A DNA stretch of 64,000 nucleotides from Bacteroidales bacterium (GCA_016929525.1 JAFGIP010000114.1:62001-126000), one strand, 5' to 3'. Shown: positions 47,906 to 64,000, counted from the stretch's first letter. Program-made: numbers and translations. The notes: generated by a model not told the origin, from the sequence alone.

Positions 47906-48010
47906 TTGTGAGGGTAAGTTTTTTTGCTCTTATATAAATATAAGTAAATTTAGTATAAATCGGAATTTATTGCTGTATTAATGTTACCAACACTTAAGCA
48001 ATATTCATTA

Positions 48011-48041
48011 TTGAGAAAAACCAGGAATGTTTGTATCTTTT
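48011..48041 (+). promoter_or_regulatory. Candidate sigma-ABfr-type promoter
   Basis: TTG (48011) - N20 - TATCTTTT (48034-48041; one mismatch to TAnnTTTG), about 45 nt upstream of the ATG at 48086. Confidence 0.4.
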
Positions 48042-48085
48042 TATATATAAACGATAATTTTGTGTACAACTGTGAATATTATACG

Positions 48086-48760
48086 ATGAGACTATTCTTT
48101 GGATTATTACTTATTAGTGTTTTGTGCAGATACAGTTATGCTGATAATGACTCTGCAAACTTTGTTATGTATAATCCCGAATTTGAATTTAAGGAAGGTA
48201 TTTTTGTAAACTTCAGCCAGGTTCAAAACAACTCGCCACTACCTAAATCACGTATAGTTACCGATATTGATTATGATAATCCGGAGTTTTTCGACTATGT
48301 TCTTTCAAAGAGTAAAATATTTTATTACGACAATATTGGTAACAAGAATGAACTGAAGTCAAATAAGGTCTGGGGATATTCCAGAAACGGATTTCTTTAT
48401 ATTAATATCGACGATGGTTTTTTCAGAATTACACTGATTGGTTCGGTATGTCATTTCATTGCAAGTCAGACAACATATAATAGTTACTATAATTCACCAT
48501 ACTACTATAATTCATATTATTATGATCCTTACAGGATGCCATCATCATACCCTTCTACCGAGATGCGTCAGTATCTGCTTGATTTTAAAACAGGGAGGGT
48601 ATTTGATTACAACGAAGAATCGCTTGAAGTTATACTTATGCAGGATCCGGAACTTCATGATGAATATGCAGCATTGAGTAAGAAAAAGAAACGTCAGCAG
48701 AAGTTTATATTTATGCGTAAATACAACGAAAGAAATCCATTATATTTTCCAAAAAATTAA
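48086..48760 (+). CDS. Secreted protein of unknown function with Tyr-rich segment
   Basis: Signal peptide MRLFFGLLLISVLCRYSYA from ATG 48086 (in frame with 47981 ORF start); TTYNSYYNSPYYYNSYYYDPYRMPSSYP low-complexity stretch. Confidence 0.7.
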   Translation: MRLFFGLLLISVLCRYSYADNDSANFVMYNPEFEFKEGIFVNFSQVQNNSPLPKSRIVTDIDYDNPEFFDYVLSKSKIFYYDNIGNKNELKSNKVWGYSRNGFLYINIDDGFFRITLIGSVCHFIASQTTYNSYYNSPYYYNSYYYDPYRMPSSYPSTEMRQYLLDFKTGRVFDYNEESLEVILMQDPELHDEYAALSKKKKRQQKFIFMRKYNERNPLYFPKN

Positions 48761-48771
48761 TAATTAAAGCT

Positions 48772-49620
48772 ATGAAGAAAAGTTTGATTGTCTTTTTATT
48801 AAGTATCTGGTTAATTGATGCTTCAGGGCAAAGTTACGTGCCAAGCCGCGATGATATTAATGCTTTTTTTAATACTAAAACCATGGTGGTTTTATTAGAT
48901 AATCCATTACTTGAATATAATATCATTATTAAAGAAGTAATGGAGCAGGAATGGGGAATTACAGATTTTGAATACATTACTTTCAAAGAATTTGAAGAAC
49001 TGAGATTTGATCCTCAGTATTCATTTTTATATATGTCGCAGGTAACTTTTGAAAATGATAAGACTGACGCACGTTATCGGTTTTTACATCTTTCACTGGG
49101 AGGTGATTATTTCAGAAAAAATCAAATGCCTGATATTGCTTCTGTTCCCTTGGCTTATTACAGTGTTGATGAAGATAATTACACATATAAGCTCGCAATA
49201 CTAGTAAGATTCATGCAGAATCATGCACTCTTAATAAAAGATCATCCGGAAATTGTCTCTGCGAATGTACTGCAGCATTATAACGACAACATTAGGGATA
49301 TTAAAGGTAAAACCCTGTACCTGCTTGAAGAAGAACTTACTGATGAAGTTAATTCAACAGCCAGAATAAAAGAAGTCTATCCTTATAAATTCAGGATAGT
49401 TACAAAAGATGTGATTACTGAAGCAATAAAGGAGCGCAATAATAATGTGGTATTTTTACACAAGGTTGGTCCTGAAGGAACTAAAATTAATGCAAGATGT
49501 TATAAGATAATAATAGGAGCTGCAGATGCTAATTTTTATTATTTCGATTATCATAAAATATCGAATAAGAAACCAGACGGATTTTTAAGTGACGATTTTA
49601 AGAAGCTTGCCAAAAAGTAA
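48772..49620 (+). CDS. Secreted protein of unknown function
   Basis: Signal peptide MKKSLIVFLLSIWLIDASGQ; 12 nt after the preceding orphan gene; no family recognised. Confidence 0.7.
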   Translation: MKKSLIVFLLSIWLIDASGQSYVPSRDDINAFFNTKTMVVLLDNPLLEYNIIIKEVMEQEWGITDFEYITFKEFEELRFDPQYSFLYMSQVTFENDKTDARYRFLHLSLGGDYFRKNQMPDIASVPLAYYSVDEDNYTYKLAILVRFMQNHALLIKDHPEIVSANVLQHYNDNIRDIKGKTLYLLEEELTDEVNSTARIKEVYPYKFRIVTKDVITEAIKERNNNVVFLHKVGPEGTKINARCYKIIIGAADANFYYFDYHKISNKKPDGFLSDDFKKLAKK

Positions 49621-50726: not shown

Positions 50727-52685
50727 ATGGACCTTTCGGTAATAATAGTAAATTATAATGTAAGATATTTCCTCGAACAGTGTCTGCATTCTGTTTTAAA
50801 AGCTGCTGTGAATATCAGGTGTGAAATTATTGTAGTTGATAACAATTCGGTTGATGGTTCATGCCAGATGGTAACAGCTAAATTTCCTGATGTAAAGCTA
50901 ATTGCTAATAATGAAAATGTTGGTTTTTCCAGAGCAAATAACCAGGGGATTAAAATATCAGCCGGCGAATTTATTCTTATTTTAAATCCGGATACAATTG
51001 TTCAGGAAGATACTTTCGTAAAATGTCTGCAGTTCATGAGAGTAAACCCTGATGCAGGAAGCCTGGGGGTAAAAATGATTGACGGGAAAGGTACTTTTTT
51101 ACCAGAGTCGAAGCGCTCGCTGCCAACACCAGCTGTGTCGTTTTATAAGATCTTTGGTATATCGTCGCTTTTCCCAAAGTCCAGAATATTCGGCAGATAT
51201 CATTTGGGATATCTTAATGTGGATGAAACAAATAAAGTTGAGATATTGCCGGGTGCATTTATGTTTATAAGAAAATCCGTATTGAATAAAATAGGGCTGT
51301 TAGACGAAACTTTTTTTATGTACGGAGAAGATATTGATCTTTCATATAGAATTATGCAGGCCGGGTATGATAATTATTACTTTCCTGAAACAACAATTAT
51401 TCATTACAAGGGAGAAAGTACAAAGAAAGGCAGCATTAATTATGTGTTGGTATTCTACAGGGCAATGATCATCTTCGCGCGTAAACACTTTTCAAAGAAA
51501 AACGCCAGATTATTTAGTTTTTTAATAAACATGGCTATTTATCTCAGGGCATCTGCATCAATAATAAGACGTTTATTTCTGAACTCTGTTATACCTCTTG
51601 CCGATGTTGCCCTTATGTACACGGGGTTTTATATAATCAAACCATTCTGGGAGAAGATAAGATTTGGCAGAGCTGGTTATTATCCTGAAGAATATATGTA
51701 CTATGTTGTCCCTGCTTATATCCTGATTTGGTTGTTTTCACTTTATATGTCAGGAGCTTATGAAAAGAAAACCCAACCAAAAGATATATTCAGGGGAATA
51801 CTGCTCGGTACTACCGTTGTATTGATTATTTATGCTCTGTTACCTGAAACTTTGCGATTTTCAAGAGCCCTGTTGTTATTTGGAGCAGTATGGGGTGTGG
51901 CATCGTTATTCCTTACGCGTATTACATTAGGAACATTATTTAATAATGTACGACTGATTTTTAAAAAAAAGAAAAAGCGAATTGTAATTGCCGGATCCAA
52001 TGATGAAAGTAAACGTGTGTTATCATTACTTCAACAAGCTAATATTTCACCAACTTTCGTAGGATTAACAGGTGTCCGGGAAGACCATGTGAAGGGTGAA
52101 TATTTGGGAAATCTCTCTCAAATAAACGATATAGTAAAAATTAACCGAATTGATGAGATAGTTTTTTGTGCTAAGGACATCCCGTCTCAGATCATTATTG
52201 AAACGATGTTAAGCATTAGCGATACATCAGTCGATTTTAAAATAGCTCCTCCGGAAAGCATTTCTGTTATTGGCAGTAGTTCAATTAATACTGCCGGCGA
52301 GCTTTATATTGTCAGTCTTAACTCATTAAGTCAAACCATTAGTCGCAGGAAAAAAAGAATTTTCGATGTATTAACATCTATAGTTTTATTGGCACTGTCT
52401 CCATTCCTGGTGTTTTATGTAAATAAACCTCTGCATTTATTAAAAAATATCTTATATGTACTTACTGGAGCAAAAACATGGATAGGTTATTATAGGCTTA
52501 ATGATCTTATTGATGAAAATCTTCCAAAGATTAATCACGGAGTTTTAACTCCTGTACCAGCATCAAAAGAAAGAATTTTGAATAAGCAAACTATTGATCG
52601 GCTCAATTTGTTGTATGCAAAGGACTATAAAATGTCTAACGATCTTTCATTCATAATAAGAGATTTAAAATTTTTGGGCAACTGA
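50727..52685 (+). CDS. GT2-family glycosyltransferase fused to a membrane region resembling polyprenyl glycosylphosphotransferase N-terminal half
   Basis: MDLSVIIVNYNVRYFLEQCLHSVLKA...LNPDTIVQED...MYGEDIDLSYRI (GT2); then TMs, KKRIVIAGSNDESKRVLSLLQ Rossmann-like, RRKKRIFDVLTSIVLLALSPFLVFYV. Confidence 0.85.
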   Translation: MDLSVIIVNYNVRYFLEQCLHSVLKAAVNIRCEIIVVDNNSVDGSCQMVTAKFPDVKLIANNENVGFSRANNQGIKISAGEFILILNPDTIVQEDTFVKCLQFMRVNPDAGSLGVKMIDGKGTFLPESKRSLPTPAVSFYKIFGISSLFPKSRIFGRYHLGYLNVDETNKVEILPGAFMFIRKSVLNKIGLLDETFFMYGEDIDLSYRIMQAGYDNYYFPETTIIHYKGESTKKGSINYVLVFYRAMIIFARKHFSKKNARLFSFLINMAIYLRASASIIRRLFLNSVIPLADVALMYTGFYIIKPFWEKIRFGRAGYYPEEYMYYVVPAYILIWLFSLYMSGAYEKKTQPKDIFRGILLGTTVVLIIYALLPETLRFSRALLLFGAVWGVASLFLTRITLGTLFNNVRLIFKKKKKRIVIAGSNDESKRVLSLLQQANISPTFVGLTGVREDHVKGEYLGNLSQINDIVKINRIDEIVFCAKDIPSQIIIETMLSISDTSVDFKIAPPESISVIGSSSINTAGELYIVSLNSLSQTISRRKKRIFDVLTSIVLLALSPFLVFYVNKPLHLLKNILYVLTGAKTWIGYYRLNDLIDENLPKINHGVLTPVPASKERILNKQTIDRLNLLYAKDYKMSNDLSFIIRDLKFLGN

Positions 52686-52847: not shown

Positions 52848-54191
52848 ATGAGTAAAACTGAAGTTACATTGCCTGCAATGGGCGAAGGAATAATTGAAGC
52901 AACAATTACTAGATGGTTTTTTCGGGAAGGAGAATCTGTACTTGAAGATGAACCATTACTTGAAGTAGCAACAGACAAAGTAGATTCTGAGATTCCTTCT
53001 CCGGTTTCAGGTATTATTTCCCGAATTTTTTATTCAGAAGGAGAAATTCCCAGGGTTGGAGCTGTTATAGCAATAATTGAAAGTGAATTATCTGCCACAT
53101 CTGATGATTCAGAAACAGAAGGATCGGATATGAAACTAACTGTTAATAAACCTGAGACAAAAAATAATATTTCTGATGAACCCGAAACTGAACCCGGAAA
53201 GAATTTTAAGAAAAGTTCAGACCAACGGGAAGATAACAGGGTTTCCCGGGAACATATGCACTTAACTCCGTTTGTCAAATTTCTGGCAAAAAGCAGGGAA
53301 ATTTCGTTTGATGAACTTATGCAAATAAAAGGTACTGGTCTTAAGGGGCGAATTACCAAAGCTGATCTGAATGCTTATATTCTGGCAGGACGACCATTTA
53401 AGGATCTTTTTAATTCCACACAGGATCATAATTTGGTGGAAGGAGAAATTGCAGGTACTAATGAAAAGAATTTATATAAAGCAGGACCCGGAGAAGAATT
53501 AATTGAAATGAACCGCACCCGGAAACTCATTGCAGAACATATGGTTCGCTCCAAGCGCATTTCACCGCATGTTACCTCCATGGTAGAGATTGACGTATCT
53601 CACATGGTTCAGTGGAGAAATGAAAATAAAGAAACATTTCAGAAAAAACACGGAATAAAACTGACATATACACCGGTTATTGTATATGCAGCAGTTCAGG
53701 CACTGAAGAAATATCCGATGATTAATATTTCGGTTTACGACGAATATATTATTAAAAAGAAGAATATCAATATTGGTGTTGCAACAGCCTTACCTGATGG
53801 CAACCTGATTGTTCCGGTTATTAAAGATGCTGATAAAAGGACATTTTGGAATCTTGCCCGGGAACTGTCTGATTTAGCTAAAAGAGCACGCGAAGGAAAA
53901 TTGGAACCTGCTGAAATTAAAGGCGGCACATTTACAATAACCAATATGGGACAATACGATAATATATCGGGAACTCCAATAATTAATCAACCTGAGGTAG
54001 CAATTTTAGCCGTAGGTTCTGTTAAGAAAAAACCCGGAGTTGTCACTATGGGTGAAGAACACACAATTGGTGTGCGGGATATTATGGTGCTCTCATTAAC
54101 CTATGATCACAGGGTAGTGGACGGTGCACTCGGAGGATCTTTTGTTAAAGAAATAGGAAAAATCCTTGAAGGTCCGATGCCTGAATATTAA
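52848..54191 (+). CDS. 2-oxo acid dehydrogenase E2 component (dihydrolipoamide acyltransferase)
   Basis: Lipoyl domain LLEVATDKVDSEIPSP; peripheral-subunit-binding HLTPFVKFLAKSREI...GLKGRITKADL; catalytic YDHRVVDGALGG. Confidence 0.94.
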   Translation: MSKTEVTLPAMGEGIIEATITRWFFREGESVLEDEPLLEVATDKVDSEIPSPVSGIISRIFYSEGEIPRVGAVIAIIESELSATSDDSETEGSDMKLTVNKPETKNNISDEPETEPGKNFKKSSDQREDNRVSREHMHLTPFVKFLAKSREISFDELMQIKGTGLKGRITKADLNAYILAGRPFKDLFNSTQDHNLVEGEIAGTNEKNLYKAGPGEELIEMNRTRKLIAEHMVRSKRISPHVTSMVEIDVSHMVQWRNENKETFQKKHGIKLTYTPVIVYAAVQALKKYPMINISVYDEYIIKKKNINIGVATALPDGNLIVPVIKDADKRTFWNLARELSDLAKRAREGKLEPAEIKGGTFTITNMGQYDNISGTPIINQPEVAILAVGSVKKKPGVVTMGEEHTIGVRDIMVLSLTYDHRVVDGALGGSFVKEIGKILEGPMPEY

Positions 54192-54307: not shown

Positions 54308-57300
54308 ATGTTAAAATTTTATAATCTTCCTTTGTTAGCTTTCTTTATAATAGCTTTCAATCTGATTGATAATTTACCGGTTTTTTCCCAGGATGAAGTT
54401 GATGCGAAACAGATGTTTATTGAAGCAGAATCATATTTTCTGTTTGAAGAATTTAAAGATGCCTTGCCATTATATCAGAAAATTGCCAGACTTGAACCAC
54501 AAAATTACAATGTTCAATACAAAATAGGTATTTGTTATCTGAACAATCCTTACTTAAAACAGAAAGCCATTAAATATCTTGAACTGGCGGCACAGAATAT
54601 AAATCTGAAGTATAAAGAAAATAATTATAAAGAAAAACTTGCTCCTCTGGAGTCATATTACTACCTGGGTAAAGCATACCATATCAATAATATGCTGGAT
54701 AAGGCCATAGATAATTATGCGGGGTTTAAAAAAATGGCAGATCCTGATTTTTACGACTTGACAATAGTAAATGAAGATATTGAAGCATGTAATCGTGCAA
54801 GAGTAGCGATGAATGATCCGGTTTATTTGGAAGTAAATAATGCCGGCACGCAAATTAACAGCCAGTTCGAAGATATTAACCCTGTGTTAAGTGGTGATGA
54901 AAAAACCCTCATATTTGCCAGGAAACTGCAGTTTTACGATGGAGTATTTATATCATTTAAAAATGAAGATGGCAGTTGGACAGCACCTGTAAATCTTACG
55001 CCGGAATTTGGTTTGGACGGTAACTCATATTCAACAGGTATTACTTATTTCGGAGATGAAATATTTGTATATCGTAGTGATGATTACGATGGGAATATTT
55101 ATTCAAGTAAGCGTGTTGGTGAAAAATGGTCAAAACTTACAAAGCTGAATGATAATATCAATACCAAATTTTGGGAGTCGCATGCATCTCCATCACCTGA
55201 TGGTCAGTACCTGTTTTTTACTTCAAACAGATCTGGAGGATACGGAGGGCTTGATGTTTATAAATCGAGACGAAGTGCAAACGGCCAGTGGGGAGAAGCA
55301 GTAAATATGGGGCCTGTGATTAATTCACCTTCAAATGAAGAGACACCTTTTCTTACCAATGAAGGATATTCCTTGTTTTTTAGTTCACAGGGGCATAAGA
55401 CAATTGGCGGATACGATATATTTGTTTCCCATCTTCAAAGCAATGGTGCCTGGAGCAAACCTATAAATATGGGTTATCCGCTAAATACTACCGAGGACGA
55501 TCTTTTCTATAATCCAACAGGAGCCAATACCTATGGTTATTACTCATTTTATAAAGATGGAGCCGGTTTAGGTTTAATGGATATTTATTTAACTGAGGTA
55601 TATAACAGTGCAATCCCCAGGACTTTTAATATCCGGGGAAGATTAAATCTCGACCAAACAAAAGCTAAAGATTATAAAAAAATTACAGTTAAACTTCTTG
55701 ATGCAGAAACCGGTGAAATTGTTAACGAATCGAAAGTAAATGCTGATGGGACATATTCTTTATCTGCAAAACAGGGGAGCTATGTATTGCTTATTGAAGG
55801 TTCGGGAATAAAGCCTTTCACCCGGTCGGTTAGTCTCAACGTTGTTCAGGCAGAATCTAAGGTAATGTTGGAAACAATAGACCTGAGCCCTGAAGAAGGA
55901 GGTGTTGAAATAGCTGCAGTCACACCGGTGATGCCTGCACAAAAAATAGAAGTTAAAAACGATTTCTTTGCAGTAAGCGATTCTTCTGCTGTACCAATCT
56001 CACTTACATTACCTGGAGAATCAGACTTGCAAATTGACATTTCAGTTGACGGGGAATTCTATAAAACAGATAGCATTAAAGGTGTTAAAAAGAAGTTTAC
56101 GTATTTCTATAAGCCAAAACCAGGAGAAAATATTCTGAAATTTACTGCAACCGATGCAGATGGTAATATATCTTCTGCAGAGGTTATTGTAACTTATTAT
56201 CCGCCTGTAAAAGAAGCTGAAATAACCAAATTGCAGAAACCGGAATTAAAAACTCCCGGCGATAAAATCAGTGGGTTTCAGTTTGTTCAGATTGATGCAC
56301 TTAAAGAATACCTGGAAGGACTAAACCTGGCTGAATTTAGTAACTATTATGCTCTTTACAGTCATTTAAAAGAGGTATCGAAAGAAGAAGAATTTACTGT
56401 AGATGAAATAAAACAATTCTGTGCTGTTTTGTTTACCCAGAAAGATAATAATGTTTTTAAAGATGAGCTGACAAACGTTACCGATACCATAAGCGACAAA
56501 TGGCTGGAACAGCTCGACAGTTCATCGGTGCCCATCGATTTCCTGCAAAAGTTAAGTTCGAAAGGAGAATATGTAAGCAATGACCTGAACAGGTTATTAA
56601 TGGAAATATTAATTGCTCAGGAAGGTTCGGGTCAGTCGGTGCTTGAGAATTTATATTCTTTTACAGACAAAGAAGAAATTGGTAAAGAAGGCTTGCAGAG
56701 CAATTTATCTAAGGAACAAATCTTACAGTTATATTTTTCAGATAAAGAAATATCTGGTGCACAATATTCTTTGCATTTGGCGGCAACAACAGATGAGCTA
56801 TTCTACTTTTACCAGAACATAATCATTGCTTCATCAGATAATCTTAGATCTTATCTGACAGGGATGAACTTTGAATCAGAAGGAATACTCAACTCAATAT
56901 ATCTGGTCGAGCATTTGTTTGAAAAAGCTGAAGAAGGGATAATAAGCGAGAAAGATCTTCTGAATGCTCTTGAACTAATTTCATCGAACAAGAATTTTTA
57001 TCTGAGTGAATTTTCTGCTATCCTCACCGGAAATGCTACAGGATCGCTTAAGTCGCAATTATTGCTAATGAACCTTGAAGAGGAAGAAATTAATACTTAC
57101 GGGGAACTCCTTGATCATCTGGTTCAAAATTCTCAGTATAAAAACTATACAAAGGAAGAAGTATATAAGTTATTTATTGACTTAACCGGCATTACGGATG
57201 TTAAAAAGTTTGCTGAAAAAATCAGATCATATAATTATATAGCAATTAATAAAGCTCTTTCAGATACAACGCTGAAATATTTTTCAAATCCTTTTGAACT

Positions 57301-57538
57301 AATTCAGTATCTGTTGTCGGTATCGCCCGAATATGACTTTACGGAATCTGACATTAATAACCTGCTGATTCAGATGATTCTTGAAAGAGGATTAGATGAC
57401 AAAGAACTAAGAGCATATTCTAAGGGCACTGATAAATTCTGGAAAACAAGAAAATTCAGAACTACAATAATTCTCATCAATATTCTTTTAATAATTCTAA
57501 TAATTCTTTTCTCGCTGAGAAGAAAAAATAAGGATTAA
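54308..57538 (+). CDS. TPR + PD40 beta-propeller + CRD-like protein with C-terminal helical repeats and TM anchor (array member 1)
   Basis: KIGICYLN TPR region; FFTSNRSGGYGGLDVYKSRR, FFSSQGHKTIGGYDIF PD40; C-terminal FRTTIILINILLIILIILFSLRRKNKD. Confidence 0.85.
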   Translation: MLKFYNLPLLAFFIIAFNLIDNLPVFSQDEVDAKQMFIEAESYFLFEEFKDALPLYQKIARLEPQNYNVQYKIGICYLNNPYLKQKAIKYLELAAQNINLKYKENNYKEKLAPLESYYYLGKAYHINNMLDKAIDNYAGFKKMADPDFYDLTIVNEDIEACNRARVAMNDPVYLEVNNAGTQINSQFEDINPVLSGDEKTLIFARKLQFYDGVFISFKNEDGSWTAPVNLTPEFGLDGNSYSTGITYFGDEIFVYRSDDYDGNIYSSKRVGEKWSKLTKLNDNINTKFWESHASPSPDGQYLFFTSNRSGGYGGLDVYKSRRSANGQWGEAVNMGPVINSPSNEETPFLTNEGYSLFFSSQGHKTIGGYDIFVSHLQSNGAWSKPINMGYPLNTTEDDLFYNPTGANTYGYYSFYKDGAGLGLMDIYLTEVYNSAIPRTFNIRGRLNLDQTKAKDYKKITVKLLDAETGEIVNESKVNADGTYSLSAKQGSYVLLIEGSGIKPFTRSVSLNVVQAESKVMLETIDLSPEEGGVEIAAVTPVMPAQKIEVKNDFFAVSDSSAVPISLTLPGESDLQIDISVDGEFYKTDSIKGVKKKFTYFYKPKPGENILKFTATDADGNISSAEVIVTYYPPVKEAEITKLQKPELKTPGDKISGFQFVQIDALKEYLEGLNLAEFSNYYALYSHLKEVSKEEEFTVDEIKQFCAVLFTQKDNNVFKDELTNVTDTISDKWLEQLDSSSVPIDFLQKLSSKGEYVSNDLNRLLMEILIAQEGSGQSVLENLYSFTDKEEIGKEGLQSNLSKEQILQLYFSDKEISGAQYSLHLAATTDELFYFYQNIIIASSDNLRSYLTGMNFESEGILNSIYLVEHLFEKAEEGIISEKDLLNALELISSNKNFYLSEFSAILTGNATGSLKSQLLLMNLEEEEINTYGELLDHLVQNSQYKNYTKEEVYKLFIDLTGITDVKKFAEKIRSYNYIAINKALSDTTLKYFSNPFELIQYLLSVSPEYDFTESDINNLLIQMILERGLDDKELRAYSKGTDKFWKTRKFRTTIILINILLIILIILFSLRRKNKD

Positions 57539-57542
57539 ACTC

Positions 57543-59561
57543 ATGAACCCTATTTACAGATATGTCGGTATATTATTTATACAAGTAGCAACATGTGCTC
57601 TGTTACAAGGTCAGATATGGCTTTCGAATGAAGATATATATAACGAAGCTGAAGAATATCTTAATGCCGAGGAATATATTGAGGCATTACCATTATATCT
57701 TCTGCTGGAACAGAAAGAAATTATTAATGCAAATGTTTCCTATAAAATTGGCGAATGTTATCTGAATATAAGAGGACGTAAACATAAATCAATACCCTAT
57801 CTGGAATCAGCAGTAGAGAATGTAACATCAGATTATAAGAATGAATTTAAAGAACAAAGAGCTCCACTTAGAGCTCTGTTGCTTCTTGGTGTTGCATATC
57901 GCATTAATAATGAACCAGACGTGGCAATAAATACCTTCCGGATACTTGGGGATTCAATTCACGACACTGATCCTGAACTGATGGCTATCGTTGATATGCA
58001 TATTAAAAGATGTGAAAATGCAAAGCTGTTGGGTGCTTTTCCGGGCGAACCGCGCACATTTAAACTCTCAGAACGGATCAATACAAAATATTCAGATTAC
58101 AATCCGGTTCTTGTGGGACTTGATAGCATACTCTATTATATGGAAGAATTACCTTTTTATGATGCCTTAATGAGATCCGAAATGCTTGGTGATGACTGGG
58201 ATGTACCACAGAATATGACTCCTGTTATTGGGAGCGATGGCGATCATATTCTTGTCGGAGCATCTGCCGATGGTAAAACACTTTTGCTTTATCTTTATGA
58301 ACCACTGAAAGCAGGTGAAATATATGTTATTAATCAAACGGATGACGGATGGCAGGATATTGTCCCGCTTAACGAAAACATTAATACTCAGTATAATGAA
58401 ACTCACGCCAGCTTATCATATGATGGGAAAACACTGTACTTTACCAGTAATCGCCCGGGGGGATACGGCGGACTTGATATTTATATGTCGAAACTCGATG
58501 AAAATAACGACTGGGGTACTGCTGTAAATATCGGACCAACAATTAACACTGCATATAACGAGGAATGCCCGATTATTACCAGCGAGGATGATATTTTATA
58601 TTTCAGTTCGCAGGGCCATCTGAATATGGGTGGCTATGATGTTTATTACGCACAGAGAAAAGCGGAAAACAAATGGAGGCAACCGATCAATATGGGATCA
58701 CCGGTATCAACCACCGATGATGACCTTTTTTACTACCCGCTCGAAAGTGAAGTCTCCGGTCTTATGTCGAGACTTGAACAACCATACAATACCGGCTACG
58801 ATATTTACAGGTATAACAGTATGGTCTTTCCCAACACTCCGAGATACTCAGTAAAAGGAAATGCAAATGATATTGATTCAACAAATACAGAAAAAGAAGT
58901 TGTTGTAATCGATGTTGAAACATCGGATACACTTCTGCGAAAAAGCCCGGGGAAAGATGGAAGTTACGAATTCATATTACCGGCAGGTAATTTTACTGTA
59001 GCTGTTGTTAATAAATATGGAGAAGCTTACTTTGCAGAGATTGACCTGAATAATGACCCGATTGAATCAATTCTGGTATCAAAGATGACCGGAGAAGCTG
59101 GGAAAATTTCTGAAGGCAGTGCGCTAATGACATTAATAGTAAAGGATACAGTGGTAATTAAAAATATTCTTTTTGGATTCGACACCTATTCATTTATTTC
59201 ATACTATAAACCATACCTTGAATCGGTTTCTCAGATAATGATAGATAATCCCGGATTGAATCTGAAAATCACAGGTTATACCGATGCTATTGGAAGTGAA
59301 AGTTATAATCTGATCTTATCTGAGAAAAGGGCGAATGCTGTGTTGAATTACTTCATCAGTAAGAACATCGACAGGTCTCGTTTTAAAGTTTTCGGGAAAG
59401 GTGAAGCTGATCCCGTCGCCAAAAACAAAAACGATAATGGTACAGATTGCCCGGAAGGAAGAAAATATAACCGCAGGGTAGAGATATATCCGATTTCGGA
59501 TAGTGAGGAAGTTGTTATAAAAAATAATGTTAAGATTCCACCTTCTGTCCGGTTTAAATGA
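57543..59561 (+). CDS. TPR + PD40 + CRD-like + OmpA-C protein (PorE-like; array member 2)
   Basis: KIGECYLN; FTSNRPGGYGGLDIYMSK; ITGYTDAIGSESYNLILSEKRANAVLNYFISKNID OmpA peptidoglycan-binding motif. Confidence 0.9.
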   Translation: MNPIYRYVGILFIQVATCALLQGQIWLSNEDIYNEAEEYLNAEEYIEALPLYLLLEQKEIINANVSYKIGECYLNIRGRKHKSIPYLESAVENVTSDYKNEFKEQRAPLRALLLLGVAYRINNEPDVAINTFRILGDSIHDTDPELMAIVDMHIKRCENAKLLGAFPGEPRTFKLSERINTKYSDYNPVLVGLDSILYYMEELPFYDALMRSEMLGDDWDVPQNMTPVIGSDGDHILVGASADGKTLLLYLYEPLKAGEIYVINQTDDGWQDIVPLNENINTQYNETHASLSYDGKTLYFTSNRPGGYGGLDIYMSKLDENNDWGTAVNIGPTINTAYNEECPIITSEDDILYFSSQGHLNMGGYDVYYAQRKAENKWRQPINMGSPVSTTDDDLFYYPLESEVSGLMSRLEQPYNTGYDIYRYNSMVFPNTPRYSVKGNANDIDSTNTEKEVVVIDVETSDTLLRKSPGKDGSYEFILPAGNFTVAVVNKYGEAYFAEIDLNNDPIESILVSKMTGEAGKISEGSALMTLIVKDTVVIKNILFGFDTYSFISYYKPYLESVSQIMIDNPGLNLKITGYTDAIGSESYNLILSEKRANAVLNYFISKNIDRSRFKVFGKGEADPVAKNKNDNGTDCPEGRKYNRRVEIYPISDSEEVVIKNNVKIPPSVRFK

Positions 59562-59706
59562 TAAATAAATAACAGGATTTAACAGTTCAATTGTATTGCA
59601 TCTTTTTTTTTACTAATTTAATGCTATTAACAAATTTAATTTGTTGATAGTATGATCTGTAGTTTTCAGGTTAATAATTTAATTTTGAATTAAAACAGCC
59701 ATCCTG

Positions 59707-61629
59707 ATGAAAAAGTCCATTATTTTAGTTCTGGCATTATTCTCAGTTTATTTCAGTGCGCTTAGCCAAAGAAGCGAAAGTGAAATTGCTCTTAAAGAGT
59801 ATTTCATTGATGCTGAGTTTTTCCTTGCCCAGGAGTTTTATATTGATGCACTTAACGATTATCTGCAGGTGTCAAGAAGAGGTTATGAAGATAACGCAAA
59901 TATTAATTACCGGATTGGTATTTGTTATTTAAATATTCTAGGGCAGAAAGATAAAGCAATAGAATATTTCGAAAAGGCAAGAGCTTCAGTTTCTTTAAAA
60001 TATAGAGAGAGCTCATTGGGTGAAAAAAGGGCCCCGATCGACCTTTATTTGTATTTGGGTAATGCATATAGGGTGAATAATAAATTAGATAAGGCAATTG
60101 ATGCTTATAACACATATAAAAGTCTGTTGCCCGAAGAAGAATCAGAACTCCATAGTTATGCCAGCAAACAGATTGAAGCATGTAATATAGCTTCAGAATT
60201 TATGAAAGAACCAGTCGATGTTATCTTCACCAATCTGGGACCAAAAATTAACGACAGCAACGAAAATTACAAAGCAGTGATCTCGGGTGACGGCCAGACC
60301 CTGGTATTTATGCGCCGCCTTCCGTTTTACGATGCTGTATATTTTTCTAAAAAAGAAAATGGTGAGTGGACCGAACCATTAAATATAACTCCACAGATCA
60401 TGTCAGATGGTAATCAGTTTGTTTCGTCACTTTCATATGATGGAAAACTGATGTTTCTTACCATAGAAGATGAGTATAACAGCGATATAATGAAGACCAC
60501 ATATGTTGATAACAGGTGGACAAAATCTGAACGTCTTGGGTCCCACATCAATACAAAATATTGGGAATCACATGCAAGTATATCAAAAGATGGAAGAAAA
60601 TTATATTTTACCAGTAACAGAAAGGGAGGTATTGGTGGAGTTGATATTTATATCTCAGAATTAGGAGATGATGGGAAATGGGGTGAACCCGGGTTGATGA
60701 GTGATCATATAAATAGTGATCTGAATGAAGATACACCATTCATTTGTGAAGATGGAAAAACTCTGTATTATAGCTCTCAGGGTTTTACCAGCATGGGAGG
60801 ATACGATGTATTTGTAACGCTTTATGAAGGAGAAAGTGGTTGGTCTGTACCTGAGAATCTGGGCTATCCGCTGAATACAACCGACGACGACCTGTTTTAT
60901 TATCCATGGAGAACCGGGGCGATCGGTTATATGGCACGTTTAGAAGAAGATGGCTTTGGGTCAACTGATATTTATGAAATCAGGTTTCCGAAACAGATTG
61001 AAGAGGTACCCATAACTGAAGCGGAGGTTACCCGGGATACAATTATTAAAGCCGAAACTCCTATCGTGGAAGAGCTTATTGAAGCTGTTGTTAAACCTGA
61101 AGTTGAAGCAGAACCTGAGACTATTCAGGATACAGCGGTTAAAACCGAAACTCCTGTTGTAGAAGAAATAATTGAGGCTGTAACTATTCCCGAACCTGAA
61201 TCCCTTATTAAAAAAGTTGAAATAAAACCAGTATTCTTTGCATTTGATAAATCAACCTTATCTGATGAGGGTATTGCTGAGTTGAATAAAATTCTGCAAA
61301 CAATGAATGAATTTCCGGATATTAAAGTCCAACTGACAGGATACACTGATGCATTGGGACCGGCAGAGTATAATATTCACCTGTCAGAAAGAAGGGCTAT
61401 GTCGGCTATGAAATACCTGATAACAAAAGGAATAGATGCTACAAGGCTTAGCGCTGTTGGAAAAGGAGAAACTAATTTTATTGCACCAAATACTAAAGAA
61501 GATGGATCGGATGACCCTGAAGGAAGAAAATATAACCGCAGGGTAGAGTTTGAAATATCCGGAATTGACAGTAAAACATTGATTATAAAACGACTTAATC
61601 CTGTTCCTGAAAAGCAGGCCATAAAATAA
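59707..61629 (+). CDS. TPR + PD40 + Glu/Val-rich linker + OmpA-C protein (PorE-like; array member 3)
   Basis: RIGICYLNILGQKDKAIEYF; FTSNRKGGIGGVDIY; GYTDALGPAEYNIHLSERRAMSAMKYL. Confidence 0.9.
   Translation: MKKSIILVLALFSVYFSALSQRSESEIALKEYFIDAEFFLAQEFYIDALNDYLQVSRRGYEDNANINYRIGICYLNILGQKDKAIEYFEKARASVSLKYRESSLGEKRAPIDLYLYLGNAYRVNNKLDKAIDAYNTYKSLLPEEESELHSYASKQIEACNIASEFMKEPVDVIFTNLGPKINDSNENYKAVISGDGQTLVFMRRLPFYDAVYFSKKENGEWTEPLNITPQIMSDGNQFVSSLSYDGKLMFLTIEDEYNSDIMKTTYVDNRWTKSERLGSHINTKYWESHASISKDGRKLYFTSNRKGGIGGVDIYISELGDDGKWGEPGLMSDHINSDLNEDTPFICEDGKTLYYSSQGFTSMGGYDVFVTLYEGESGWSVPENLGYPLNTTDDDLFYYPWRTGAIGYMARLEEDGFGSTDIYEIRFPKQIEEVPITEAEVTRDTIIKAETPIVEELIEAVVKPEVEAEPETIQDTAVKTETPVVEEIIEAVTIPEPESLIKKVEIKPVFFAFDKSTLSDEGIAELNKILQTMNEFPDIKVQLTGYTDALGPAEYNIHLSERRAMSAMKYLITKGIDATRLSAVGKGETNFIAPNTKEDGSDDPEGRKYNRRVEFEISGIDSKTLIIKRLNPVPEKQAIK
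61036..61200 (+). repeat. In-frame tandem linker duplication within array member 3
   Basis: DTIIKAETPIVEELIEAVVKPEVE and DTAVKTETPVVEEIIEAVTIPEPE, from 61036 and 61129. Confidence 0.75.
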
Positions 61630-61637
61630 GGTTTTTT

Positions 61638-61664
61638 AAAGCTGCCTCGTTGGCAGCTTTTTTT
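61638..61664 (+). terminator. Rho-independent terminator between array members 3 and 4
   Basis: AAAGCTGCC-TCGTT-GGCAGCTTT perfect stem followed by T's. Confidence 0.9.
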
Positions 61665-61747
61665 ATCTGCAGTACCTGCCTCTTAATAACTTAACTTAAT
61701 TTTGATTGCCCTTTTTGTTATATTTGGTCAAGCCAAACTTTCCGATA

Positions 61748-63067
61748 ATGAAAAAGTATCCTTTTATAATATTATTTACATCATTGCTGCTTATTTCATA
61801 TCGAGCCGGCAACCAGGATGAAGACTCAATGAAAGAACTATTTAACGAAGGTCAGTACTTTTTCAATCGTGGTGATTATCAGGATGCTCTTCATTTTTAT
61901 CTTCAGCTTCTAAGCAAAGATTCTTTAAATGCTAATTTTAATTTTAAAGCCGGCGAATGCTACCTGAATATTCCAGGTAAGGAAACACAGGCGATACCGC
62001 ATTTTAAGATAGCAGAGAAAAAAATTGTACCTAAAAAAAGCTATAATAAAAGAGATTTCGGGGAAACAGATGCACCGCTGCATTTGTACTTTTATTTAGG
62101 TAATGCATATCGAATTGATAACCAGTTGGACAAGGCGCTGGAATGTTATAAGAAATTTATGGACTCTCCGTTTTTTTGGAATAACTATAATCAGGACCTG
62201 GTAGAACGTGAAATCAGATCATGTGAAAGGGCAAAGATAATTCAGGATGCACCTTTGCAATTTGAAAAAATAAAGCTTGATAGTAACTTTAATACAAGAT
62301 TCTCAGAAGAGTTTCCGGTGATCTCAGGTGACGGGCATACAATGGTGTTTATTCGCCGGCTTCAGTTTTACGATGCGGTTTATTATACAACAATTAAAAA
62401 CGGAGTATGGGAGAAGGCAGTTAATATTAACCCACAAATTATATCCGACGGTGATTTCTATCCAACAGGTTTGTCGTATGATGGTACAAAACTACTTCTA
62501 GTAAAAAGAACACGAGATGAAAGTGATATCTGCATCGCTTATTTAAATGATGGCATATGGAGTAAGGCTGAATATATTTCAGGCAAAATAAACTCAGGTG
62601 CCAGGGAAACATATGCCACATTTGCTCCGGATGAAAACTTAATATATTTATCAAGTAATCGCGCGGGAGGTAAAGGTGGATTCGATATTTATGCATCTCA
62701 TAAGTTATCGGACGGTAGCTGGAGTAAACCTAAAAATATGGGTAAGGTAATTAATACCATCGGAGATGAACAATCACCCTGCTTCTGCTATAGTCAACAA
62801 GTTTTATTCTTCAGCTCAAACAATCATTATAATATGGGGGGATATGATATTTTCTACAGCAGAAAGATTGGGAAAAAATGGTTGATACCTGTTAATTTGG
62901 GATATCCTTTGAATAATACCGGGGATAATCTTGGTTATTACCCTGCAGCAGGCTGCCGGGAAGGTTATTATACTTTTTCGAAAGAACAGGATTCAGATAT
63001 TTATTTTATAAAGATAAAGTCGGAAAATGTATTGAATTATAAAGATTTGGACACACAAAATAAATAA
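61748..63067 (+). CDS. TPR + PD40 protein lacking an OmpA domain (array member 4)
   Basis: Start ATG 61748 with signal peptide MKKYPFIILFTSLLLISYRA; KAGECYLNIPGK; LSSNRAGGKGGFDIY; FFSSNNHYNMGGYDIFYS; stops after NLGYPLNNTGDNLGYYPAAG. Confidence 0.85.
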   Translation: MKKYPFIILFTSLLLISYRAGNQDEDSMKELFNEGQYFFNRGDYQDALHFYLQLLSKDSLNANFNFKAGECYLNIPGKETQAIPHFKIAEKKIVPKKSYNKRDFGETDAPLHLYFYLGNAYRIDNQLDKALECYKKFMDSPFFWNNYNQDLVEREIRSCERAKIIQDAPLQFEKIKLDSNFNTRFSEEFPVISGDGHTMVFIRRLQFYDAVYYTTIKNGVWEKAVNINPQIISDGDFYPTGLSYDGTKLLLVKRTRDESDICIAYLNDGIWSKAEYISGKINSGARETYATFAPDENLIYLSSNRAGGKGGFDIYASHKLSDGSWSKPKNMGKVINTIGDEQSPCFCYSQQVLFFSSNNHYNMGGYDIFYSRKIGKKWLIPVNLGYPLNNTGDNLGYYPAAGCREGYYTFSKEQDSDIYFIKIKSENVLNYKDLDTQNK

Positions 63068-63078
63068 AATATCAACTA

Positions 63079-64000
63079 GTGCTTGTTTCATTAATAAGAA
63101 ATATTCGGTACTATGGAATTTTTATAGTATTAACCTATTTCCATATTATAGCTTCGGGACAGGCCACCGGTGATCCCCGTGAAGATTTTCTTTTCGGCGA
63201 GTTTTATATCGAACAGCAACAGTATACAAAGGCATTACCATTTTATTTATCAGCTTTGGAAGCATATCCGGATAACAGTAATTTCAATTACAGGGTAGGT
63301 CAATGTTATTCTACAATGATTGGCCAGCAACATCTTGCTTTACCTTATCTTGAAAAAAGTGTAAAAGATATCAATGAGAATTATGTTCCGGGAAAATTTA
63401 AAAATACCGGAGCTCCAATTGAGGCATGGCTTTTTTTAGGCGACGCCTACCATCGTGTAAACGACCTTACAAGTGCATCCTATGCATATAATATATATAA
63501 GCAGATGGTTGGAACTTCAGACAAACAACGTTATGAGATGATCATGACAAAAATAGACGCCTTGGGTGTTTCTTTCGAGCAGCAAAGAAGTGAAGAGGAT
63601 ATTCGGATGCTGAATTTGGGTACCATTATTAATACAAGATTCTCAGATTATAATCCTGTTCTTAGCGGTGACCAGAAAATCATGATATATACTCAGTTTC
63701 TGGAATCGTTTGACAGGATTGTTATTACAAAAAGAACTCCGGAGGGATGGGCTGAACCCATAGATATCACTGCAGAACTGGGATCACAGGGCGATTGCTA
63801 TACAACAGCTTTATCGATTGATGGCAAAGAACTGTACGTGGTTAAGCACAGCACTTACGATCATGATATTTATTTTTCAACATTTGTCGATACAGCCTGG
63901 ACACCGATAAAACCCATCTCCGGAAAGATAAATAGTAAACACAGAGAAACTAGTGCTTCAATTAGCGGTGATGGACAAACCCTTTATTTTGCAAGCGACA
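63079..64000 (+). CDS. TPR + PD40 protein, 3' truncated by window end (array member 5; not in the ORF track)
   Basis: Open frame from GTG 63079: MLVSLIRNIRYYGIFIVLTYFHIIASGQATGDPREDFLFGEFYIEQQQYTKALPFYLSALEAYPDNSNFNYRVGQCYST...SISGDGQTLYFASD, no stop before 64000. Confidence 0.85.
   Translation, partial: MLVSLIRNIRYYGIFIVLTYFHIIASGQATGDPREDFLFGEFYIEQQQYTKALPFYLSALEAYPDNSNFNYRVGQCYSTMIGQQHLALPYLEKSVKDINENYVPGKFKNTGAPIEAWLFLGDAYHRVNDLTSASYAYNIYKQMVGTSDKQRYEMIMTKIDALGVSFEQQRSEEDIRMLNLGTIINTRFSDYNPVLSGDQKIMIYTQFLESFDRIVITKRTPEGWAEPIDITAELGSQGDCYTTALSIDGKELYVVKHSTYDHDIYFSTFVDTAWTPIKPISGKINSKHRETSASISGDGQTLYFASD

Follow-up and report, generated by a model that had tools for sequence, protein, structure and literature searches.

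A tandem array of five genes in a draft Bacteroidales genome encodes paralogues that share an exported TPR-propeller core and differ in their C-terminal tails. It represents a conserved variant of the PorE-like family that has apparently not been described, a literature search having found no paper on such an array. Its conservation in many families of one order makes it probable that the set is an undescribed envelope assembly rather than a single known secretion protein. The chances are about even that its products form a hetero-oligomeric periplasmic scaffold joining the inner membrane and the cell wall.

Genes of the array and their shared core

The window analysed, a stretch of 64,000 nucleotides, corresponds to positions 62001-126000 of contig C37 in a 4.06 Mb draft genome. 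Members 1 to 5 (m1 to m5) lie on its plus strand as open reading frames at 54308..57538 (m1; Pfam PD40, 1.6e-17), 57543..59561 (m2), 59707..61629 (m3), 61748..63067 (m4) and 63079..65079 (m5); the last is cut at the window end at 64000 and was completed from the genome contig, window numbering being continued. The original prediction, made from the window, spoke of at least five members. Five are present and no sixth appears past 64000: the next gene after m5 encodes a GNAT acetyltransferase, whose start ATG at 65076 overlaps the m5 stop (ATGA), and the array therefore has exactly five members. Across mapped arrays the median gap from member to member is 78 bp, and from the last member to GNAT it is 2 bp.

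All five proteins begin with a signal peptide, followed by a TPR block and PD40 repeats, and Pfam detects TPR, PD40 and OmpA domains among the array members. In pairwise comparison the cores are 31-44% identical (E 1e-65 to 1e-111), a likeness far beyond chance; the proposal of five same-strand paralogues with a common TPR and PD40 core is thereby borne out. m4 consists of the TPR block and a five-bladed propeller only, as modelled with AlphaFold2 as a single chain (pLDDT 91.4, pTM 0.82), and the closest PDB fold to this model is TolB.

An invariant cysteine, in a GxCY motif, had also been pointed out. All five members here have it, as do 115 of 122 array members, yet it is also present in PorE proteins; it is thus an ancestral feature and no mark of the array. 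For the same reason the motif was dropped both as an array signature and as a sign of a track disulfide (for the GldK-SprF disulfide mechanism see PMC12635249). The absence of a lipobox was likewise abandoned as a means of telling array members from PorE: a lipobox-like pattern occurs in 3 of the 122 array members, m2 and m3 not among them, and the PorE proteins of these genomes mostly lack one as well.

Divergent C-terminal tails

In m1 the signal peptide and core (amino acids 2-431) are followed by two beta-sandwich domains, helical repeats, a C-terminal transmembrane (TM) helix and a basic tail; the prediction had described the repeats and the TM helix and had missed the beta-sandwich domains before them. 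The C-terminal 645 amino acids were modelled with a pLDDT of 82. On comparison of this model with the PDB, the beta domains resemble DUF3823/FnIII-type folds, and they alone matched, the helical repeats having no counterpart among the matches listed. The TM helix and basic tail (TTIILINILLIILIILFSLRRKNKD; 57449..57535, plus strand) are indicated by hydrophobicity, by a helix at 617-644 of the model and by alignment in 25 orthologues, and hydrophobicity reveals such a TM tail in 36 mapped proteins. From the signal peptide and the positive-inside rule, we infer that m1 sits in the inner membrane with its basic tail in the cytoplasm.

Two members carry an OmpA peptidoglycan-binding domain (Pfam PF00691), m2 at 59172..59438 (GYTDAIGSESYNLILSEKRA; plus strand, 4.7e-16) and m3 at 61234..61503 (plus strand, 1.2e-19). 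The D and R of the binding motif are intact in both; m1, m4 and m5 have no OmpA domain. The OmpA domain of m2 is as predicted, but the CRD placed before it is unrecognised by Pfam at E 0.01 and is seen in alignment to the PorE profile only. m3 has no CRD, an acidic linker lying between its propeller and its OmpA domain. m4, having no anchor, is predicted to be a soluble periplasmic protein. The tail of m5, at first classed as unknown, now appears to be SPOR-like (PF05036): the match is weak in m5 itself, at E 0.2 and below the gathering score, whereas six of eight m5 orthologues match, the best at 2.3e-9. In some other families OmpA and SPOR are found together on one member.

Phylogeny of the core

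The tree was built on the TPR-propeller core alone, so that the tails had no influence on it; support is given as bootstrap/SH-aLRT. Most array members, together with a few single-copy relatives, form one clade of 53 rows (100/99). PorE proteins form a separate clade (100/99), as do CHU_0125-type proteins (100/99), whose rows are split from the array and its nearest relatives at 100/100. The array family as a whole is nested among PorE-type proteins, and the array clade does not include the first members of two arrays that have no TM member (L103 and L106).

The main TM (98/96), m2 (100/99), m3 (100/97) and tail-less m4 (100/99) classes are each a clade of the core that spans genera or families, although the TM members of loci L090 and L096 lie outside the main TM clade. 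Since the tail classes are core clades across genera and families, the type of anchor has been inherited with the core, and the duplication is older than most of these families, the set having been kept.

Conservation and genomic setting

Array members are present in all 17 sampled genomes of the source's family; of 15 genomes mapped within it, 14 have a contiguous array. Beyond this family, roughly a dozen others in the order have the array as well. A sample of 297 genomes of the phylum, drawn largely from other orders, contained one single match and no array besides that of the source genome. Gene order is GT2, often E2, the array and GNAT, followed in many loci by LonR, holA and a rhomboid gene, and it is the same in named Bacteroidales MAGs, PFL1 among them, and in GSL.Bin23 (titled Bacteroidetes). 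The members thus form one main clade with conserved synteny, not a collection from unrelated clades without a conserved neighbourhood, and the original view of the array as more than a single PorE is upheld by its monophyly, its synteny and its distinct inherited anchor types.

In each of the 26 bounded TM-bearing loci a single TM member is accompanied by one or more tail-less members, and an OmpA and/or SPOR member is present in 24 of them, loci L092 and L094 being without a recognised wall-binding member. Four arrays (L103, L104, L106 and L107) have no TM member, and the frequency of TM members is biased upward because loci were partly chosen with m1 as the query. In three genomes the array is distributed over more than one contig, and its pieces lie inside these contigs. 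Two of these genomes (G039 and G052) keep TM, tail-less and wall-binding members; in the third (G151), a TM and a tail-less member are joined by a 492-amino-acid member with no recognised tail. Although few, these cases speak for selection having acted on the set, over and above mere linkage. A break within a member was seen in G009, a single-contig genome of 75% completeness, where the core of the m1 homologue (L071:7703-8422, at 3.24 Mb) is separated from its TM-bearing end (L073:8478-10184, at 0.51 Mb) by rearrangement or assembly error.

In the window, the near-constant upstream neighbour is a GT2 glycosyltransferase with a diverged polyprenyl sugar-transferase-like part (50727..52685, plus strand; Pfam GT2, 2.2e-23, and NCBIfam). 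It is followed by a lipoyl E2 acyltransferase (52848..54191, plus strand; Pfam 2-oxoacid_dh, 1.5e-77), a gene often found between GT2 and m1 and missing there in several loci. Nearly all bounded loci have the array flanked by GT2 and GNAT, the GNAT protein weakly resembles the sugar acetyltransferase PseH, and a SPOR protein, Wza and Wzc are encoded downstream in the source's family and in G124. It might be supposed from this that the array serves polysaccharide synthesis or export with GT2, GNAT and, in the source's family, SPOR2-Wza-Wzc. However, GT2 and GNAT are common throughout the order and adjoin each other without an array in G082 (38 bp apart), G091 (18 bp), G137 and others, so that the array sits inside an apparently older gene pair. 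The wider region is a housekeeping one (recR, holA, rhomboid, algH), and Wza-Wzc is absent beside most other arrays, which leaves the polysaccharide link possible but weak. As the main explanation a polysaccharide operon is weakened by these observations, and we regard it as rather improbable.

Several further features of the region were recorded. The GT2 fusion has a WcaJ-like part in which the C-terminal sugar-transferase region has diverged. Several genomes of the order that have no array align with the GT2 half alone, in open frames of about 390 amino acids. A protein encoded past the window end (L009:12747-14387) accompanies Wza-Wzc downstream of the array in mapped loci; it has no Pfam match here, and SPOR domains are present in 7 of 10 orthologues. 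At 47981-49620, two adjacent genes of 259 and 282 amino acids have no Pfam or NCBIfam match; in most genomes mapped within the source's family the pair precedes the array, the second gene being 58-84% identical in relatives.

Relation to PorE and the T9SS

PorE (PG1058) has the order TPR, five-bladed propeller, CRD and OmpA, to which m2 comes nearest, in outline only; array members further share with PorE the GxCY motif and export to the periplasm. The array differs in having TM, SPOR and anchorless versions, in its separate clade and in the lack of a nearby PorP gene. Against the PorE model NF052230, with its curated cut-off of 600 bits, m1 to m5 score 114-208 bits. Against the CHU_0125 family model NF053607 (cut-off 620 bits), which is the best NCBIfam match of most array members, they reach 133-214 bits. 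The true PorE of the source genome is a separate gene at C89, a different contig from that of the array, and scores 677 bits. Each array genome compared by hand in the survey of the order likewise has an above-cut-off PorE away from the array; in G039 it lies about 137 kb off on the same contig, and otherwise on a different one. Score, tree and separate PorE gene together rule out that the members are PorE itself, and with no PorP nearby the claim that they are PorE-like in the T9SS sense is not supported. CHU_0125-type proteins have a comparable TPR-PD40-OmpA architecture, but the array belongs to a separate clade, and the source genome has a CHU_0125-type protein elsewhere (C33).

SprA, and with it the T9SS, is found in all array genomes tested, but as the T9SS is present in almost the whole order this does not discriminate. 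A T9SS-independent array genome was sought among those with no strong PorE match (G044, G058, G060 and G157), all of which proved to have SprA. Two further loci were noted in passing. In G104, a PorE-like paralogue (C35:302136-303392, in a frame of 751 amino acids) lies about 5 kb from SprA (308210-315364) on one contig, and L010:12448-19640 holds a gene for a 2020-amino-acid PKD-like surface protein and then a PorP-like gene, about 20-27 kb past the array on the same contig.

The PorE of P. gingivalis, a lipoprotein of the outer membrane, binds to PorP as well as to peptidoglycan (PMC7192894, PMC9143113), and in F. johnsoniae PorE-like genes lie beside PorP-like genes (PMC9143113, PMC12618676). 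By analogy, the array members could act separately instead of in one complex, each fixing its own outer-membrane or T9SS partner to the wall or membrane, after the model of PorP-like barrel and type B cargo proposed for Flavobacterium PorE-like proteins. The F. johnsoniae operons resemble the present case in that there are several PorE-like copies per genome with possible wall anchoring, and both the nesting of the array family among PorE-type proteins and the presence of SprA in array genomes fit such a role. However, those operons combine a single PorE-like gene with a PorP-like gene and type B cargo, whereas here the genes stand in tandem, their anchors diverge and a PorP-like gene is lacking. 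In the source genome PorP-like genes directly adjoin two single PorE-like genes (C86 and C89), yet the one nearest to the array is 26 kb away, and only one PorP-like protein was found in 766 open reading frames of the array loci and their flanks. Moreover, an anchorless m4 and a membrane-anchored m1 are ill suited to wall anchoring by every member. Independent anchoring is therefore considered unlikely.

A proposed periplasmic scaffold

The scaffold would have arisen by tandem duplication of a PorE-like TPR-propeller protein, followed by divergence of the C-terminal anchors, so that each locus would supply one inner-membrane member, usually at least one peptidoglycan-binding member (OmpA and/or SPOR) and one unanchored member. 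With its signal peptide, large periplasmic part, C-terminal TM helix and cytoplasmic basic tail, m1 would be held in the inner membrane; m2, m3 and m5 would hold the wall, and m4 would be free. Binding of the shared cores to one another, or to partners that they have in common, is most likely, and from this we infer a hetero-oligomeric bridge from the inner membrane to the cell wall that would support an envelope machine. Its clients may be outer-membrane stability, the T9SS or polysaccharide export.

In favour of a scaffold are the shared core with distinct tails, the agreement of tail class with core class, the co-retention of members, also in split arrays, their close packing and the intact OmpA motif. 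Against it, co-retention can equally reflect separate useful functions, and there are the two loci without a wall binder, the four arrays without a TM member and the bias from the m1 query.

Comparison with Tol-Pal

The most interesting reading of the array, given a propeller closest to TolB and the absence of TolB and Pal equivalogs from 29 genomes tested, is a Tol-Pal-like role. m4 would be TolB-like, m2 and m3 Pal-like, m1 the inner-membrane component and m5 a septal SPOR protein, in a system that would stabilise the outer membrane and the division site; we hold this to be a doubtful proposition. The m4 propeller best matches TolB and TolB-Pal (E 2.8e-10). PD40 repeats are TolB-like repeats, however, which makes this fold match generic; the TM-scores are modest (0.41), the array propeller has five blades and that of TolB six, and m2 and m3 are without a lipobox. 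A search of 29 genomes of the order, some with the array and some without, found TolB at 1e-40 in none and Pal above the equivalog cut-off in none, whereas E. coli and Caulobacter, the positive controls, were both positive. As array-less genomes also lack TolB and Pal, the array is no required replacement.

The folds are comparable to those of Tol-Pal (TolB, Pal, TolA, CpoB), namely TPR, a TolB-type propeller, an OmpA domain and an inner-membrane part. In the array, by contrast, the anchors are fused to copies of one scaffold, and the comparison is one of folds, not of system homology. Further encouragement comes from the literature: for Bacteroidetes, work published in 2025 put forward PorE as a tether in which CpoB-, TolB- and Pal-like parts are fused (PMC12204202), and CHU_0125, which is related and likewise of TPR-PD40-OmpA type, maintains the integrity of the outer membrane (PMC5891637). 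In the array, such a tether could be distributed over several proteins. On the boldest view, to which we give little credence at present, it would be an undescribed, Bacteroidota-specific counterpart of Tol-Pal, in which duplicates of one scaffold, anchored in the inner membrane, bound to the wall, septal (SPOR) or soluble and TolB-like, would together couple inner membrane, wall and outer membrane without TolB or Pal.

The array carries a warning that a TPR-PD40-OmpA gene need not be PorE or part of the T9SS. How the Bacteroidota envelope coheres without Tol-Pal is a standing question, and PorE has been put forward as part of the answer (PMC12204202); one scaffold with an inner-membrane, OmpA, SPOR or no anchor offers a compact gene set for that question of a Tol-Pal-less envelope.
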